Shown here: piece after piece, positions 338 through 16,082 of the stretch
Layout: each line of letters starts with the position of its first letter
Numbering within the stretch: the stretch's first letter is position 1
Source: Gammaproteobacteria bacterium
GTDB taxonomy: Bacteria; Pseudomonadota; Gammaproteobacteria; Steroidobacterales; UBA11654
Reading direction: 5' to 3'
Assembly: GCA_002717445.1 (NCBI GenBank)
Contig: PBDY01000019.1
Span: forward strand, 54,558-118,557
DNA: 64,000 nucleotides
Translations under genes and position numbers: made by a program
Notes under the pieces: model-generated
The model's input: the letters and a program-made list of their open reading frames with translations, nothing else
What the model was told of the DNA's origin: nothing
Databases searched by the model: none

Positions 338-790
338 ATGAATGAAATAAGAAAAAACTTAGAAGAAACATTGCTTGATCTAATAAACGGAAAAGGATTC
401 GAGTTGATCGAAATTGAGCAGCGCAGCCTTAGGAAAGGCGTTAAGATTGTTATTTATATTGATCATGAGCTGGGCATTGTAATGGACGACTGTGTTTCAA
501 TATCAAAGATGTCTGAAGACATCATCGATGAATTCATAGATCCTGAAAGCTATGAATTAGAAGTTTCGTCTCCAGGGCTTGATAGGAAATTAATTAAGAA
601 AGAGGATTTTGACCGATACAAAGGAAAGACAATCAAAATTAAACTAAAAGAAAAAATGAATGATCGCAAAAATTTTAAAGGGGTGCTTGCTGACAGAAGA
701 GGGGACTTGGTCTTTCTAGAAGATGACGAAGTGTTTGAAATTCCAATGGATAGAATTGACATATGTCGAATTGTTCCACAATTTAATTAA
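338..790 (+). CDS. rimP: ribosome maturation factor RimP
   Basis: RimP helps late maturation of the 30S ribosomal subunit in the cytoplasm. The 150-aa protein has the family length and layout: an N-terminal alpha/beta domain with the conserved core ...YELEVSSPGLDR (about residues 70-82), then a C-terminal SH3-like barrel. It is the first gene of the conserved rimP-nusA-infB-rbfA-truB-rpsO-pnp cluster, 14 nt ahead of nusA. The ATG at 338 is used; there is no strong Shine-Dalgarno, and the GTG four bases upstream is in another frame and stops at once. It probably reads through from the tRNA-fMet promoter. Confidence 0.95.
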   Translation: MNEIRKNLEETLLDLINGKGFELIEIEQRSLRKGVKIVIYIDHELGIVMDDCVSISKMSEDIIDEFIDPESYELEVSSPGLDRKLIKKEDFDRYKGKTIKIKLKEKMNDRKNFKGVLADRRGDLVFLEDDEVFEIPMDRIDICRIVPQFN

Positions 791-804
791 AGAGGTGAAT
801 ATAA

Positions 805-2313
805 ATGATCACGGATATCATTAATGTAGTTGACACACTATCTGAGGCAAAAGATGTCGAAAGAGATGTAATTTTCGAAGCCATTGAAAATGCATTGGAA
901 TCAACTACTAAGAAAAAATACACAGAAAACATGGATGTTAAAGTCACCATTGATCGTGAGTCTGGTGATTATAAAACATATCAGAGATGGATGGTTTTTG
1001 CTGATGACTCCAGAGAGTTAGAAGATCCAGACTATGAGCTAAGAATGCTTGATGCCGTTGATATCGATAAAGATGCCAGAGAAGGTGAATATATCTATCA
1101 GGAGATTGAGTCTGTTGATTTAGATAGCAGAATAGGAGCTCAAATAGCAAAGCAAGTCATTGTTCAAAAAGTAAGAGAAGCAGAGAAAAAGAAAGTCATT
1201 GATCTTTATCATGATCGTTTAGGTGAAGTCTTAAGTGGTGTTGTAAAAAGGGTTGATCGGAATGGTTTTTACGTGGATGTTGGGAATAACGCTGAAGCAT
1301 TTTTACCCAGAAGAGAATCCATAGCAAAAGAGGCCATTCGGCCTCAAGACAGAATCAAGGCTCTATTAAAGGATATTAATGATGATATGAAAGGACCTCC
1401 GCTGATATTATCCAGGGTGAGTCCGGGGTTTTTAATCGAGTTATTCAAAATAGAAGTTCCCGAAATCAATCAAAACTTAATCGAAATCGTGGCGGCTTCA
1501 AGAGATCCTGGTTCAAGGGCTAAAATTGCAGTTAGGTCAGACGATAAGAGGATCGATGCTGTTGGTGCTTGTGTAGGCATGCGAGGGTCAAGAGTGCAAT
1601 CCGTCTCAAATGAATTAAATGGTGAGAGAATAGACATTATTTTATGGTCAGAAAATACCGCCCAGTTTGTTGTGAATGCAATGTCACCAGCAAACGTCGT
1701 ATCAATCGTAGTCGATGAAGAAAATCAAAGCATGGATATTGCTGTTGAAGAAGCTAAATTATCACAAGCAATTGGTAAGGGAGGTCAGAATATTAGACTC
1801 GCAAGCGAATTGACTCAATGGAAACTCAATGTTCTGAGTGAAACTGAAGCATTGGAAAAAGACGACGAAGAAATACAAAAAGTTACTGATTTATTTGTAG
1901 AATCACTATCAGTGGGTGAAGATGTAGCCATACTTCTCGCACAAGAAGGCTTTACCACAATTGAGCAAGTGGCATATGTCCCTGTAACTGAGCTTCAAAA
2001 AATACAAGGCTTTGATGAAACACTTGTTAACGAACTAAGGGAGAGAGCTCAAGATCAACTTCTGCTAGAGGCAATTTCAACAGAAGAGAGTCTTGAAGAG
2101 CATGGCCCGTCTGATGACTTATTAGCGCTTAATTCTGTCACAGAAGAATTGGCATATTCGCTTGCTCGTGCAGGAATTAATACTAAAAATCTTTTGGCAG
2201 AACAATCAGTCGATGAGTTGATTGAAATAGATGAAATCAATGAAGAAATGGCATCTTCCATGATATTAGAAGCCAGAGAAGATTGGTTTAAAGAAGGCAA
2301 AATAGAGAGTTAA
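805..2313 (+). CDS. nusA: transcription termination/antitermination factor NusA
   Basis: NusA binds RNA polymerase and nascent RNA and controls pausing, termination and antitermination. The 502-aa protein shows the standard order: an N-terminal RNAP-binding domain, an S1 domain (GVVKRVDRNGFYVDVGNNAEAF, about residues 140-160), two KH domains (the second marked by IGKGGQNIRLA, about residue 325), and two acidic C-terminal AR repeats typical of gammaproteobacteria. The Shine-Dalgarno AGAGGTG lies 8-14 nt before the ATG. Length is close to the E. coli protein (495 aa). It is followed 18 nt later by infB. Confidence 0.97.
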   Translation: MITDIINVVDTLSEAKDVERDVIFEAIENALESTTKKKYTENMDVKVTIDRESGDYKTYQRWMVFADDSRELEDPDYELRMLDAVDIDKDAREGEYIYQEIESVDLDSRIGAQIAKQVIVQKVREAEKKKVIDLYHDRLGEVLSGVVKRVDRNGFYVDVGNNAEAFLPRRESIAKEAIRPQDRIKALLKDINDDMKGPPLILSRVSPGFLIELFKIEVPEINQNLIEIVAASRDPGSRAKIAVRSDDKRIDAVGACVGMRGSRVQSVSNELNGERIDIILWSENTAQFVVNAMSPANVVSIVVDEENQSMDIAVEEAKLSQAIGKGGQNIRLASELTQWKLNVLSETEALEKDDEEIQKVTDLFVESLSVGEDVAILLAQEGFTTIEQVAYVPVTELQKIQGFDETLVNELRERAQDQLLLEAISTEESLEEHGPSDDLLALNSVTEELAYSLARAGINTKNLLAEQSVDELIEIDEINEEMASSMILEAREDWFKEGKIES

Positions 2314-2331
2314 AAAAATTAGGAATTAATT

Positions 2332-4752
2332 ATGTCTACCACAACAGTATCTAAATTAGCAACGGCACTTAAGATTGAGCCTGAAAAACTGATTGCTCAA
2401 CTCAATGATGCCGGAATCATTGTCTCAGTTGAAACAGATACCATCACCAATGATCAAAAATTAACTCTTTTGAATCATCTCCGAGGAAGTCATGGAACAA
2501 AGACAGAGATTAAATCGCCAAAAAAACTGACTGTTAACAGAAGGTCGCAAAGTGAATTAAAGCTTTCAGGTGGTTTTGGTACATCAAGAACAGTGAATGT
2601 TGAGGTCAGAAAAAAGGCGACCTATGTGAATAAGGATTCTTTATTAGAAGAGGCTAAAGAAGCAGAGGAAATAGAAAGGCTGGCCAAAGAAGCTGCAGAG
2701 AAAGAAGCGCAAGAAGATGCAAAAAGAAAAGTTGAGGAAGCTAAGTCCACAGAGTTAAATCCTCAAGCAGAACAAGTTGCTGATCCCATTCAAGCCCCTG
2801 AATCTCAAAATATCAATGATCCTATTAAAGATAAAGCAAAGAAGAAATGGAAAAAAACTAAACATGAAAAACCATCGGATCCATTTGAAATGAAGGAGCT
2901 TCATGTTAAAGGCAATGTTAAAAGAAGAAAAAAGAGACAAGTCAGGCGATCAGTAAATTTATCATCAATAGATCAATCACATTCATTTGAAAAACCCACA
3001 CAGCCGGTTGTTAAATCCATTGAAATTCCAACTTCAATTTCACCACAAGAGATTGCTCAGAAACTTGCCATGAAAGTCAGCGAGGTTATTTCTGTGATGA
3101 TTGGTCAAGGCATTATGGCAACTGGAAACGATCACATCGATCAAGATACTGCGATTTTAGTTATTGAGGAGCTTGGTCACAAAGCTATACCAATGGATGA
3201 AAGATCTGTCGAGGATTCTGTATTTGATGAACAGATCAATGAAAATGATGCACTCAAACGACCGCCCGTTGTTACGATAATGGGCCATGTCGACCATGGA
3301 AAAACTTCATTACTTGATTATATAAGAAAATCTAAAGTGACCGACGGCGAAGCTGGCGGAATAACTCAACACATTGGAGCCTATACCATCGATGTTAAAG
3401 AACAGCGAATAACTTTCCTAGATACTCCAGGGCATGCAGCATTCTCACAAATGAGATCGAGGGGAGCAAATATTACCGATATTGTGATTTTAGTTGTTTC
3501 TGCTGACGATGGTGTGAAACCTCAAACAGAAGAAGCTATTGAGCATGCGAGAAATGCTGACGTTCCCATCATTGTTGCGATCAATAAAATTGATAAACCT
3601 GAAGCCAATCCAGAGAAAGTTAAGAATGAATTAATGGGTCTTGAGATTATTCCTGAAGAATTAGGAGGCGATGTATTATTCGTAAATGTTTCTGCGCTCA
3701 ATGGGGATGGTGTTGACCATTTACTTGAATCCATTCTTTTGCAATCTGAAGTCCTTGAATTAACCGCACCGTTTGAAGGCAGACCAATTGGAAGCGTAAT
3801 TGAATCTGGAGTTGAGAGTGGCAAAGGTCCTGTTGCAACTGTCCTTGTCAGTGAAGGTAGATTAAACAAAGGGGATTTAGTTATTGTTGGTGAGGAGTAT
3901 GGAAAGGCGCGAATTCTACTGAATGAAATGGGCGAAGAACTGACTGAAGCAAACCCATCTATGCCTGTAAAGGTCTATGGGTTATCGGGAGCACCCAATA
4001 CAGGTGATGAGCTCAGACAAGCAGATTCAGAAAGGCAAGCTAAAGAGATCAGCGATTCCAGAAAAGAAAATAGAAAGAAAAATACTCTTAATGAAAAACA
4101 AGCACAGAAGATGAAATCTTTTATGGAATCTTCCGGTACAGACAAAAAAGTTATCTCCGTGATGATTAAGGCAGATGTAAGGGGAAGCGCTGAAGCCATC
4201 AAAGATTCATTATTGAATCTCTCAAATGAAGAAGTCGACGTTGATATCATCTCAAACTCAATTGGAGGAATTACAGAATCTGACCTAAACCTTGCAGATG
4301 CATCAAATGCTTTTGTCATTGGATTCAATGTACGCGCTGATAATACAGCGAGAAAGTTGCTCAAAGATTCATCTGTTGAAGTCAAGTACTACAGCATAAT
4401 TTATGAAACCATCGAAGACATCAGTAACATGATCTCTGGCTTATCTGCTCCTATTATTAGAGAAGAGATTTGTGGTTTAGCAGAAGTCAGGGATGTTTTC
4501 GATTCACCATCATTAGGTAAGATTGCCGGGTGTTTGGTGATTGATGGAACCGTCATTAGAGCAAATCCTATTCGAGTACTGAGAGACAACACTGTTATTT
4601 ACGAAGGTGAGCTTGAATCCTTAAGACGATTTAAAGATGATGTCAATGAGGTAAAATCGGGGACAGAATGTGGCATTGGTGTAAAAAACTACAACGATGT
4701 AAAAGTTGGTGATCAAATCGAATGTTACCGAACGATAGAAGTCAAAAAATAA
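2332..4752 (+). CDS. infB: translation initiation factor IF-2
   Basis: IF-2 is the GTPase that delivers fMet-tRNA to the 30S subunit and promotes subunit joining. The 806-aa protein has an IF2_N domain at residues 1-55, a charged Lys/Glu-rich linker (about 95-215), a second IF2_N-like module (about 225-280), then the GTPase domain with G1 [10 protein letters not shown]3 DTPGHAAF and G4 NKIDKP, followed by domains II-IV. It is somewhat shorter than the E. coli protein (890 aa), mainly in the linker. The stop is one base before the rbfA start. Confidence 0.97.
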
Positions 4753-4753
4753 G

Positions 4754-5119
4754 ATGGGAAATGATTTTTCCATCAATTCAAGAGTTGAGTCAAAAATTCA
4801 TAGAATCATTAGCGAAACAGTCATTCACGACATCAAAGATCCAAGGTTAAAAAATGTATCCATCAATGAAGTTAGGTTATCGAGTGATCTTAGCCATGCA
4901 AAAATTTATTGTTCACCAATAGGAATATCTGAATCCGATTCCAATAAAGTAATTGGCTTAATGACTAAGGCATCAGGGATTTTTAAAAGAAATATCGGGC
5001 AAAGAGTTTCACTAAAAAAAATACCTGAACTGAATTTTATCTTCGATGATCATGAGAAATACGCCAATCAGCTTTCAGATTTAATTGATAGCACTATAAA
5101 AAATGACTCAGAAAAATAA
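4754..5119 (+). CDS. rbfA: 30S ribosome-binding factor RbfA
   Basis: RbfA is a KH-fold assembly factor that binds the 30S subunit late in maturation and is needed for growth in the cold. The 121-aa protein matches in length and in the conserved start (VESKIHRIISETVIHDIKDPR) and in the middle segment leading to PELNFIFDDHEKYANQLSDLID. It begins one base after infB and overlaps truB by 17 nt, so translation is likely coupled. Confidence 0.95.
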   Translation: MGNDFSINSRVESKIHRIISETVIHDIKDPRLKNVSINEVRLSSDLSHAKIYCSPIGISESDSNKVIGLMTKASGIFKRNIGQRVSLKKIPELNFIFDDHEKYANQLSDLIDSTIKNDSEK

Positions 5120-9005: not shown

Positions 9006-9392
9006 TTACTTAATTTTATTCTTTGGTGTCCATTCAGTGTTTTGGTGTTTGAATTCAATATCGGTGTAGATTCCACCGCGAACATTAAACTTTGACTTAA
9101 AATGTAAGTACCTGGGCGTTAGCAATTCCATCAAATGTTCATATATACGACCTGTTACAGCTTCGTGGTAAGCACCTTCGTCACGATATGATGCCATGTA
9201 CAACTTTAGAGATTTTAGTTCAACACAGTGCCTATCAGGCACATACTCTAGAAACATTTTTGCAAAATCAGGCTGCCCCGTCATTGGACACAAACAAGTA
9301 AATTCAGATATTTTTGTCTTGATTAAGAAATCATGTTCGATATTTGGATTATCAAATCTTTCCAAAATGTTGTGTCTACTTTTTTGATTCAT
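9006..9392 (-). CDS. queF: NADPH-dependent 7-cyano-7-deazaguanine reductase QueF (unimodular type)
   Basis: QueF reduces the nitrile of preQ0 to preQ1 in queuosine tRNA modification. The 128-aa protein has the nucleophile motif FTCLCPMTGQPDF (Cys35), the ELKSLKLYMASYRDEG substrate segment and the RGGIYTDI C-terminal strand. The length and order are those of the short, unimodular YkvM type and not of the roughly 280-aa bimodular YqcD type found in E. coli. It is transcribed toward dksA and divergently from smc, sharing an AT-rich 84-nt spacer. Confidence 0.9.
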   Translation of the reverse strand: MNQKSRHNILERFDNPNIEHDFLIKTKISEFTCLCPMTGQPDFAKMFLEYVPDRHCVELKSLKLYMASYRDEGAYHEAVTGRIYEHLMELLTPRYLHFKSKFNVRGGIYTDIEFKHQNTEWTPKNKIK

Positions 9393-9476: not shown

Positions 9477-12196
9477 ATGCGTCTCAGTAAAATCAAACTT
9501 TCAGGCTTCAAAACGTTCGTTGAACCGACAACACTAACTTTGCCATCAAATCTAGTGGGAATAGTGGGTCCAAATGGTTGTGGTAAATCAAATGTTATAG
9601 ATGCGGTTAGATGGGTTCTTGGAGAATCATCGGCAAAATATCTTAGAGGCGAATCTATGTCCGATGTTATTTTTAATGGATCCGCATCTAGAAAACCTGT
9701 CAGCAATGCTTCGATTGAGCTTTTTTTTGATAATTCTGAAAAGAAGATTGTCGGAGAATTTGCAAAATACAATGAAATATCCACTCGAAGAGTCATTACC
9801 AGAGATGGTCAGTCAGAATATTACCTAAATGGTACGAAGTGCCGACGCAAAGACATTACCAGTCTTTTCTTAGGTACAGGCTTAGGCCCTAGAAGTTATG
9901 CCATCGTTCAACAAGCCATGATCTCAAGCTTGATTGAAGCCAAGCCAGATGAAATGAGGGTATTTTTAGAAGAAGCATCGGGCATTTCAAAATATAAACA
10001 AAAAAGAAAAGAAACAGAATCCAGAATTAAAAACACGAGGGAAAACCTAAATCGTCTAAATGATCTCAAAGAAGAAATTGACAAACAGATAAAACGACTC
10101 AAAAAACAAGCGAGAGATGCAGAAAGATATAAAGATCTTAAAAGCAGAGAAAAAGACATTGAGGGAGAAATCATTTACTGCAAAATCACGGACATCAATA
10201 AAAGTCTAGAACAGAATGAATCTGAGGCAAAATCTTACCGAGATACTTACGATGATCGACTGACAAATCTAAGAAAAGTCGAAGCAGATATAGAAGAACT
10301 CCGCATAAAAAATAATGAAATTAACGAGTCATTCAACTCAAAACAGAAGGATCATTTTGAAATTCAAGCCAATATCGCAAGAATCGAACAATCCATCGAG
10401 TACGAAAAAGAATTAGAATCTCAGAAATCGGTCAATGCAAAAGAAATCAAAAAAGAACTTGATCGCATAAAGACTGAATATTCTGCTGACAAAATTGAGC
10501 TTGATCGAATCAACGCGGACCTTGAATTAAAAAATAAATCGAATGATCAAAACCAAATTGCTTTATCGCAATTAGAAAACGATCTAGACACGACATCTCA
10601 GACGCTTATATCAGAAGAAAATCTGAATGAGGATCTAAAGACTGAACTCAATGAACTTAAGACCACATTTGAAAGTGAAACAATTAGGGTCACTCTCTTG
10701 GAGAAACAATCAAGTGAGCAGATCAAACAAAAAGAAATCATCATAACAGTGCATCAACTAAAAGATGGTTTTTTAGACTTAAAGTCTCTACTAGAGGAAT
10801 CTATATCGGCTTTCAGTACCGATACTAATACAAACATTAATAACCACATACAAGAACTTGAAGCGAAAATTAATCGATTATCTTCCGAATATTCAGACAC
10901 TGAAATAAAAATATCTGAGAATGAGAAACAACTTCTTAAGACCAAAGAAGTTATAACCAGTACAAAAAAAATAAAAGATGCTTTGGAAGTGAAAAAGAAT
11001 GCTTCGGATCAAAAAAAGACGGATCTTGCTAACCTAAGAAATACACAGAATCAAAAACTAATGAACCTTAGGGAAAGGGTTCAAGATTCAGAATTAAAGA
11101 CAGAGTCCTTAAAAACCTCACAACAGGGCCTTCAAACAGCCATAGCAAGATTAGAGGCTCAAATGAATCAGCTGAAATCTCGCTCTCTAGAACTATCAGC
11201 AAAAGAAAATCCTCAGAAATCAATCAATGAGGATCAGAAATTGGAATTGGAATCTCTATTGAACAAGAGTCTTGAAAGTGAAAAATCATTGGAAGCAGAA
11301 AGAAAACAACAAGAAGAAATGCAGTCGCTTTTAAGAAATCAAGAAGTAGACCGAACAAATATCAATGCATCAGTCAATCAAGCAAGGGAAGACTTGGAAA
11401 AATTTAAGTTGAAGCAAAAAGAATATGAAGTAAGAAAAGATTCTCTTAATGAACAGTTAAATGACATGGGACTAAGCTTTGATGCAGTGGACGAAAAATC
11501 AACCAAAAAAGCGATCACACTTGATTCACTATCTTCAGAACTTGAAAAGATATTGAGAGGAATCGATCGATTAGGCGCTATCAATCTAGCAGCCGAAGCA
11601 GAATTCAAAGAAGAAAGCACTCGAATGGAAAAACTTGACGAACAGTTTGATGACCTTAATAGAGCGCTTGAAACTCTTACGGGTGCAATAAAGAAAATCG
11701 ATGATGAGTCGAAATCACGATTCAGCGAAACATTTGAAAAAGTAAATAAAGGTCTATCAAAACATTTTCCTAGACTCTTTGATGGCGGAAAAGCTTACCT
11801 AGAACTCGAAGACAATGATGCGCTCAATGGTGGTGTATTTGTCATGGCAAGACCTCCTGGAAAAAGGAACAGCAATATACATCTTCTTTCTGGAGGCGAG
11901 AAAGCTCTCACAGCTGTAGCACTCTTATTTTCAATATTTGAATTAAACCCAGCACCATTCTGCCTCCTGGATGAGGTTGACGCACCCCTGGATGACGCAA
12001 ATGTCAGTAGATTTTGTGAGATTGTAAAAGAAATGAGCAGCAGCGTTCAATTTGTTGTCATTACACACAATAAAACAACAATGGAACTGACTAAACAATT
12101 GATCGGCGTGACAATGAGTGAACCCGGTGTATCTAGATTGGTCTCGGTTGACCTTGATGAAGCAATAGAATTATCAGACCAAAATGAAACGACCTG

Positions 12197-12197
<1 letters not shown>
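9477..12197 (+). CDS. smc: chromosome-partition ATPase Smc, short and apparently hingeless
   Basis: Smc proteins form the ATPase arms of the bacterial condensin that compacts and segregates chromosomes. Both ATPase half-heads are intact: Walker A GPNGCGKS at residues 31-38, the ABC signature LLSGGEK at about 803-809, and Walker B CLLDEVDAPLDD (Asp832, Glu833) followed by a switch histidine (ITHNK). The family is usually 1150-1200 aa; this is 906 aa. Residues 170-690 are almost pure Lys/Glu/Gln/Leu coiled coil, and only two glycines occur between residues 231 and 664 (Gly431, Gly551). The Gly-rich globular hinge normally found mid-protein is therefore not visible; the coil midpoint (about 421-460) is a short hydrophobic/polar break. 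There is also no CxxC zinc hook. It overlaps zipA by 1 nt and is clustered with scpA and scpB. Confidence 0.9.
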
Positions 12198-15488
<3,291 letters not shown>

Positions 15489-15502
<14 letters not shown>

Positions 15503-16082
15503 AAATATTGTCGAAGCCTTACTGTTATCTTCAGGTGAACCTCTGTCTGCAGACAGAATACATAAAATCATCAATTCAAAAAAATCATGCACTAAGGCTG
15601 ACATACTCGAAACAATCGATGAACTGAATATCGAATACAATGAAAAAGAGATAGAAGTAACTAGAGTTGCGAGTGGCTTTAGAATCCAAGCAAAATCATC
15701 AATTAATGATTTTCTCAATATTATTTACGCTGAGAAAACACCAAGATACTCAAGAGCCCTCATGGAAACGCTTTCCATCATAGCCTATAAACAGCCAGTC
15801 ACAAGGGGAGACATTGAATCCATCAGAGGGGTATCGGTAAGCAGTAGCATCATGAGAACACTAACTGACCGCAATTGGATTAAGATTGTTGGTTATAAGG
15901 ATGTCCCCGGTAAACCTGCCATGTTTTCAACCACGAATGAATTTCTTGATTATTTTGGTTTAGAAAAACTAACCGAGCTGCCTGACCTCCCAGATATTAA
16001 GGAACCTGAAAATCTTAATTTAGATCTAGAACCTGAAACGTTAAATGAAGTGACCGCAGTTTCATCTGATCAGTTGAATTAA
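15489..16082 (+). CDS. scpB: segregation and condensation protein ScpB
   Basis: ScpB is the dimeric winged-helix partner of ScpA. The 197-aa protein has the typical first domain (IVEALLLSSGEPLSADRI) and the second one with LMETLSIIAYKQPVTRGDIESIRGV (about residues 92-116), followed by an acidic tail. The start is an ATG inside the end of scpA, preceded by AAGGAGA. It is the last gene of the smc cluster and converges on the SDR gene with no obvious terminator. Confidence 0.95.

Follow-up and report, generated by a model that had tools for sequence, protein, structure and literature searches.

Genes and features of the smc locus

The window, which is the whole 64,000-nucleotide stretch of gammaproteobacterial DNA analyzed here, contains the gene order dksA, queF, smc, zipA-like, ligA, scpA and scpB. 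The smc open reading frame (9477..12197, forward strand) encodes a protein of 906 residues that scores 844.7 bits against the NCBIfam model SMC_prok_B (TIGR02168), for which the equivalog cut-off is 567.35, and that matches Pfam SMC_N with an E-value of 1.2e-64. By its NCBIfam score this protein is a bona fide bacterial Smc; no MukB model occurred among its Pfam and NCBIfam matches, and it is 42-47% identical to hinge-bearing gammaproteobacterial Smc proteins. The N-terminal half of the ATPase head spans residues 1-170 (9477..9986, forward strand; SMC_N match, motif check and structural model) and carries Walker A at residues 31-38. The C-terminal half spans residues 754-906 (11736..12194, forward strand), with the signature LSGGEK at 804-809 and Walker B, CLLDE, at 829-833. 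Across 32 aligned Smc proteins the signature and Walker B are invariant and Walker A is at least 90% conserved, and the motif check placed all three in the 906-residue reading frame, so that the intact head of the original prediction was borne out.

Downstream of smc, a zipA-like gene (12197..12682, forward strand; PF04354, E 2.6e-6) precedes ligA (12679..14685, forward strand), an open reading frame with tblastn matches to neighbors of long smc genes. These are followed by scpA, encoding the kleisin partner (14678..15502, forward strand; PF02616, E 4.7e-34), and scpB, encoding the KITE partner (15489..16082, forward strand; PF04079, E 1.7e-48). Both partners gave full-length Pfam matches only a few genes from smc, in agreement with the claim that the gene sits in an scpAB-containing cluster. 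The divergent upstream neighbor is queF (9006..9392, reverse strand; PF14489, E 4.9e-29, and synteny). The placement of queF beside smc, with dksA close by, recurs in most hinge-bearing relatives that have sufficient flanking sequence, which indicates that the window gene is the ancestral chromosomal smc rather than an acquired paralog; vertical descent is thus supported by synteny with hinge-bearing relatives. In the second genus of the window's family, referred to here as f1, scpA directly follows zipA (L056 of genome G010, 644-4769), unlike in the window, where ligA lies between them.

Of the ten f1 genomes searched for ParB, six gave a match, including that of the window; this genome has one perfect parS-like site, which lies on its parB contig. 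Genomes of f1 and of a second family, f147, that have any parS-like site have one to three each. Low counts also occur in hinge-bearing relatives in the order (one exact parS-like site each), indicating that a low count is not specific to hinge loss.

Absence of the hinge and predicted shape of the arms

The hinge has been regarded as a required dimerization domain of Smc. Even at E<=10, a Pfam scan of the 906-residue protein did not find SMC_hinge (PF06470), and a search of the window's entire 1.5-Mb genome (84% complete) found no match, while 10 of 14 control genomes were positive. The hinge match that had been named beforehand as contrary evidence therefore did not appear. Within residues 231-664 the protein has just two glycines, G431 and G551, and a motif check of its full length found no CxxC of the kind that forms the Rad50/SbcC zinc hook, both as originally described. 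When 18 long Smc proteins were combined into a profile, matches to the window Smc ended at profile positions 419-469 and restarted at 680-723, and the hinge, at about 505-655 in the same numbering, falls inside this unmatched gap.

An AlphaFold model of the window Smc, computed from an alignment of 32 Smc sequences and with a mean pLDDT of 76.9, shows the head followed by a single helix (residues 171-445) that reverses in a turn at 446-447 into a return helix starting at 448, giving a bare hairpin at the position of the hinge. The predicted turn (10812..10817, forward strand; pLDDT about 72-78 around it) lies within what had been described as a short break in the coiled coil at 421-460. A control model of a hinge-bearing relative (L044, 1162 residues, 22 sequences) has a helix to residue 504, a mixed alpha/beta domain of 144 residues at about 505-648, which is the hinge, and a helix from 649. 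As the folded hinge emerged in this model, the same method would have revealed one in the window Smc. A Foldseek search of the window model against the PDB recovered SMC heads and arms, as expected, with TM-scores that are of little meaning for coils of this length.

The arms are also shortened. In the models the N-terminal strand (residues 171-445; 9987..10811, forward strand) is one predicted helix of 275 residues, compared with 334 in L044. The C-terminal strand (residues 448-753; 10818..11735, forward strand), the end of which was set by homology to the long forms, is predicted to be broken near 574-584 and in the joint region at 664-705; measured between the turn and the homologous end of the arm, it is 306 residues long versus 365 in L044, using an offset of 260 between the two proteins at the signature. 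Each arm strand is thus about 59 residues shorter, in addition to the loss of the 144-residue hinge. A rough conversion puts the arm length within a 270-320 residue range that was non-functional in B. subtilis Smc.

Around the turn, residues 391-480 (10647..10916, forward strand) form a tip-proximal zone of raised hydrophobicity, with a hydrophobic fraction of about 0.31-0.35, compared with 0.26 for the arms on average, and may be a site of tip-tip contact. When arm windows are ranked by hydrophobic content, the 56 residues around the turn fall within the highest 1-11% across f1. In f147, where the tip was placed at the arm midpoint rather than from a model, the corresponding windows fall within the highest 3-14%, apart from one at 29%; the sequences entering this comparison are related to one another. 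Residues 420-460 are the fastest-evolving part of the gene, with a dN/dS of about 0.14-0.28 where measurable, and no conserved motif was found in this stretch, a pattern unexpected for a specific interface. On this modest sequence evidence the tip-proximal zone is a possible substitute join.

Distribution of the hinge-free form

Family f1 comprises 11 genomes, ten in one genus and one in a second, and is probably a group of small-genome, marine bacteria. The names AG-447-O13, AG-365-L08, MED641 and MED656 of four of its members suggest the marine origin and, for the genomes with AG- names, a single-cell source. Nine of the 11 smc genes are full length, and every one encodes 905-906 residues at identities of 60-86%; the remaining two are truncated by contig ends. 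Over this range of identity the distance from start to signature is 804 or 805 residues, and PF06470 found no match in any of the 11 genomes. The sister genomes, in which an ortholog comparison had been proposed, are therefore equally short and none has a normal hinge. The dN/dS of the whole gene is 0.047-0.077 for pairs with unsaturated dS and is lowest in the head, indicating that f1 smc is under strong purifying selection, and in every f1 genome the window-type protein is the sole Smc match. These observations give good support to the proposal of a lineage in which a hinge-free Smc works with ScpA and ScpB, as the form is fixed in f1, under strong purifying selection, the only Smc detected in the genome and followed a few genes downstream by scpA and scpB.

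The other 48 relatives divide into 40 with a Pfam hinge, four without any Smc match and four in family f13. Within the order, hinge loss is confined to f1 among the 396 genomes sampled and the matches listed. Two candidates for further losses were rejected. In f13, three proteins were examined, and PF06470 misses a hinge that a profile of relatives finds (E about 1e-41); the Smc of genome G015, also 1008 residues long, has a hinge found by both the profile and PF06470. In both cases it is the arms that are shorter. The f13 proteins of genus g14 (L047-L049; genomes G022, G035 and G057) are 1008 residues long, with much shorter arms and a diverged hinge, and since these genomes measure 2.2-3.1 Mb, arm shortening is not restricted to streamlined genomes. 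Several rather complete genomes of the order, among them G012, G013 (100% complete), G025 and G049, gave no Smc match.

A second hinge-free family emerged from a class-level sample of 370 genomes, in which three f147 genomes from another order matched residues 1-904 of the window Smc in one piece. We followed this up in 25 genomes of that order, covering six genera with assembled sizes of 0.7-1.2 Mb, small enough to invite no more than a guess that f147 is marine. An Smc match was present in 22 of the 25, 19 of these being near full length, and complete genes encode 926-944 residues; no hinge match was found in f147 in any of the 25 genomes searched, and ScpA is present in 24. At one f147 locus (L067, genome G526) smc adjoins ligA and queF, the 14-kb flank contains neither scpA nor scpB, and ScpA is encoded elsewhere. 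Part of f147 (L066, L067 and L070-L088) has a polar C-terminal Smc tail that extends several residues beyond the ends of the f1 proteins and of those in f147 genus g272. A phylum sample of 398 genomes added no further collinear match among the matches listed, a search that very diverged cases could escape, and a scan of IMG/VR with the short-form alignment returned 17 weak or partial SMC-like matches and no close full-length relative.

The question of a common loss in f1 and f147 was addressed with trees of the head only, in which both families form long branches. FastTree joined the two families with a support of 0.909. IQ-TREE placed them apart, with a single clade not rejected in a fast search (p-AU 0.114) or in a fuller search whose runs were unfinished (p-AU 0.287). 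The trees thus conflict, and the hinge loss of f1 and f147 represents either one event or two. The shared queF-smc arrangement was discarded as proof of a single origin, as most hinge-bearing members have it as well.

Proposed joining of the protomers and relation to known systems

We consider it probable that the window encodes an ordinary, vertically inherited Smc that has lost its hinge and had its arms trimmed, and that still works as a Smc-ScpAB motor joined by ScpAB, the arms and the tip. Relative to the ancestral protein, the globular hinge would be gone and each arm strand trimmed by about 59 residues, leaving a helical hairpin. Smc-ScpAB would be loaded at the few parS sites near parB, and ATP-driven head engagement, with ScpA and ScpB bridging the heads, would lead to loop extrusion. 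The protomers would be held together by ScpAB, side-by-side arm contacts and the hydrophobic tip in place of the hinge and, lacking the hinge gate, the complex would be unable to step past large obstacles. We infer the dimerization mode, extrusion, chromosome folding and loss of obstacle bypass, and published work supports the feasibility of chromosome folding by such a protein. Against the motor reading stand the arm length within the range that was non-functional in B. subtilis Smc, the inactivation of that protein when hinge dimerization is lost (PMC5344682), the crosslink that the engineered Wadjet core required (PMC12647877) and the fast evolution of the tip. In a Smc dimer the arms touch along about 330 residues, which is thought to aid dimerization of hinge-less Smc (PMC5526789). 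The raised hydrophobicity near the tip and these published contacts fit dimerization through tip and arms, while the tip being the least conserved part does not; the earlier suggestion that the protein dimerizes through the coil tip or the heads only is reasonable to infer.

Two alternatives would remove the hinge loss itself. The short gene could be an assembly error, a frameshift or a pseudogene, given that fragmented assemblies from metagenomes or single cells make up most of the genomes, but nine full-length orthologs of 905-906 residues from separate assemblies, with a dN/dS of about 0.05, and 19 near full-length genes with the same loss in a second family make this chance negligible; the agreement of all independent f1 genomes rules out an assembly deletion. 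It is very improbable that the coil tip holds a strongly diverged mini-hinge below Pfam detection. The coil pattern is indeed broken at residues 421-460 and small domains can escape shallow alignments, yet the model is helical up to 445 and again from 448, and the relatives' profile that recovers even the diverged f13 hinge matches no hinge columns in the window Smc.

The remaining alternatives concern what the hinge-free protein does. The Smc protomers could be unjoined at their arm tips and form an open clamp held by the ATP-bound heads and ScpA/ScpB, similar to RecF-type ATPases. This agrees with a predicted tip that is a bare two-residue turn, and with the tip being the least constrained part of the gene, with neither a conserved motif nor a CxxC. 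Against it stand the raised tip-proximal hydrophobicity of both f1 and f147, a length that stays at 905-906 residues even at 60% identity and so suggests constraint along the arm, and the finding that the Wadjet core acts on plasmid DNA only with its ring closed by an engineered crosslink (PMC12647877). B. subtilis Smc becomes non-functional once hinge dimerization is lost, which also counts against function without a joint (PMC5344682). We regard an open clamp as rather unlikely on balance. A move from chromosome folding to another task, such as Rad50/SbcC-like repair, is improbable. Antiparallel arms without an SMC hinge do occur in Rad50/SbcC, and the resemblance has been raised for actinobacterial variants (PMC12153180), but the protein is the only Smc match of its genome, reaches 844.7 bits with the SMC equivalog model and shares invariant head motifs with normal Smc, and its genome retains full-length ScpA and ScpB, ParB and parS-like sites.

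Families f1 and f147, in which the only Smc detected is hinge-free, represent a natural experiment on the role of the hinge. A recent argument holds that the hinge is dispensable for loop extrusion and acts as a gate for obstacle bypass (PMC12647877); in Wadjet, the part from elbow to hinge is dispensable for extrusion, as long as the ring is closed, and needed for bypass (PMC12647877). Channel-less SMCs tend toward longer arms (PMC12647877), and as the arms of f1 and f147 are shorter, the compensation by longer arms proposed for those proteins is not applicable here. A wider generalization, which we find doubtful though worth stating, is that small genomes lost the hinge completely, at least twice among gammaproteobacteria and on a separate occasion in marine actinobacteria, leaving a two-armed, tip-closed condensin that extrudes loops and cannot bypass obstacles through a hinge gate. 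The hinge-free proteins are small, have known ScpA and ScpB partners and are amenable to expression and direct testing.

Hinge-less SMCs as a kind are already known, having been published once (Sussfeld et al. 2025; PMC12153180), from environmental sequences of a marine clade placed near the base of Actinobacteria. A full-text literature search, which covered few subscription papers and preprints, returned no report of a hinge-less Smc in gammaproteobacteria. Within the literature searched, the two gammaproteobacterial clades, the ScpAB/ParB context, the symmetric shortening of both arm strands and the near-frozen length appear to be new.

Among known systems, the engineered Wadjet core (PMC12647877) and a B. 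subtilis Smc whose hinge was exchanged for a zinc hook (PMC5344682) likewise work without the natural hinge. The latter supports normal growth on rich medium, and the fold of the dimerization domain is irrelevant in that protein (PMC5344682). Both were, however, given a replacement join, a disulfide and a hook, respectively, whereas none is visible in the window Smc. MukB and Wadjet-II/III, with their channel-less hinge, also depart from the toroidal, channel-containing hinge; they retain a hinge and tend toward longer arms (PMC12647877), while the window Smc is hinge-free with shorter arms. Rad50/SbcC has in common the ABC head, the long antiparallel coiled coil and the lack of an SMC hinge, and the window Smc differs in having no CxxC zinc hook, a far lower score for that family and ScpAB instead of Mre11/SbcD. 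The actinobacterial hinge-less SMCs (PMC12153180) resemble it in combining SMC head and arms with no hinge, no CxxC and a marine setting, the last being probable for f1. By their description they are set apart as environmental sequences, whereas the window's protein is gammaproteobacterial and occurs in genomes with ScpAB and ParB; its gammaproteobacterial relatives and synteny speak against a branching with Actinobacteria. The window Smc differs from bacterial Smc-ScpAB as represented by TIGR02168 and B. subtilis Smc in lacking the toroidal hinge and in arm strands that are each about 59 residues shorter than in the modelled L044, and it shares with that system the head and its motifs, the antiparallel arms, the ScpA and ScpB partners, the parB/parS context and the ancestral gene neighborhood.
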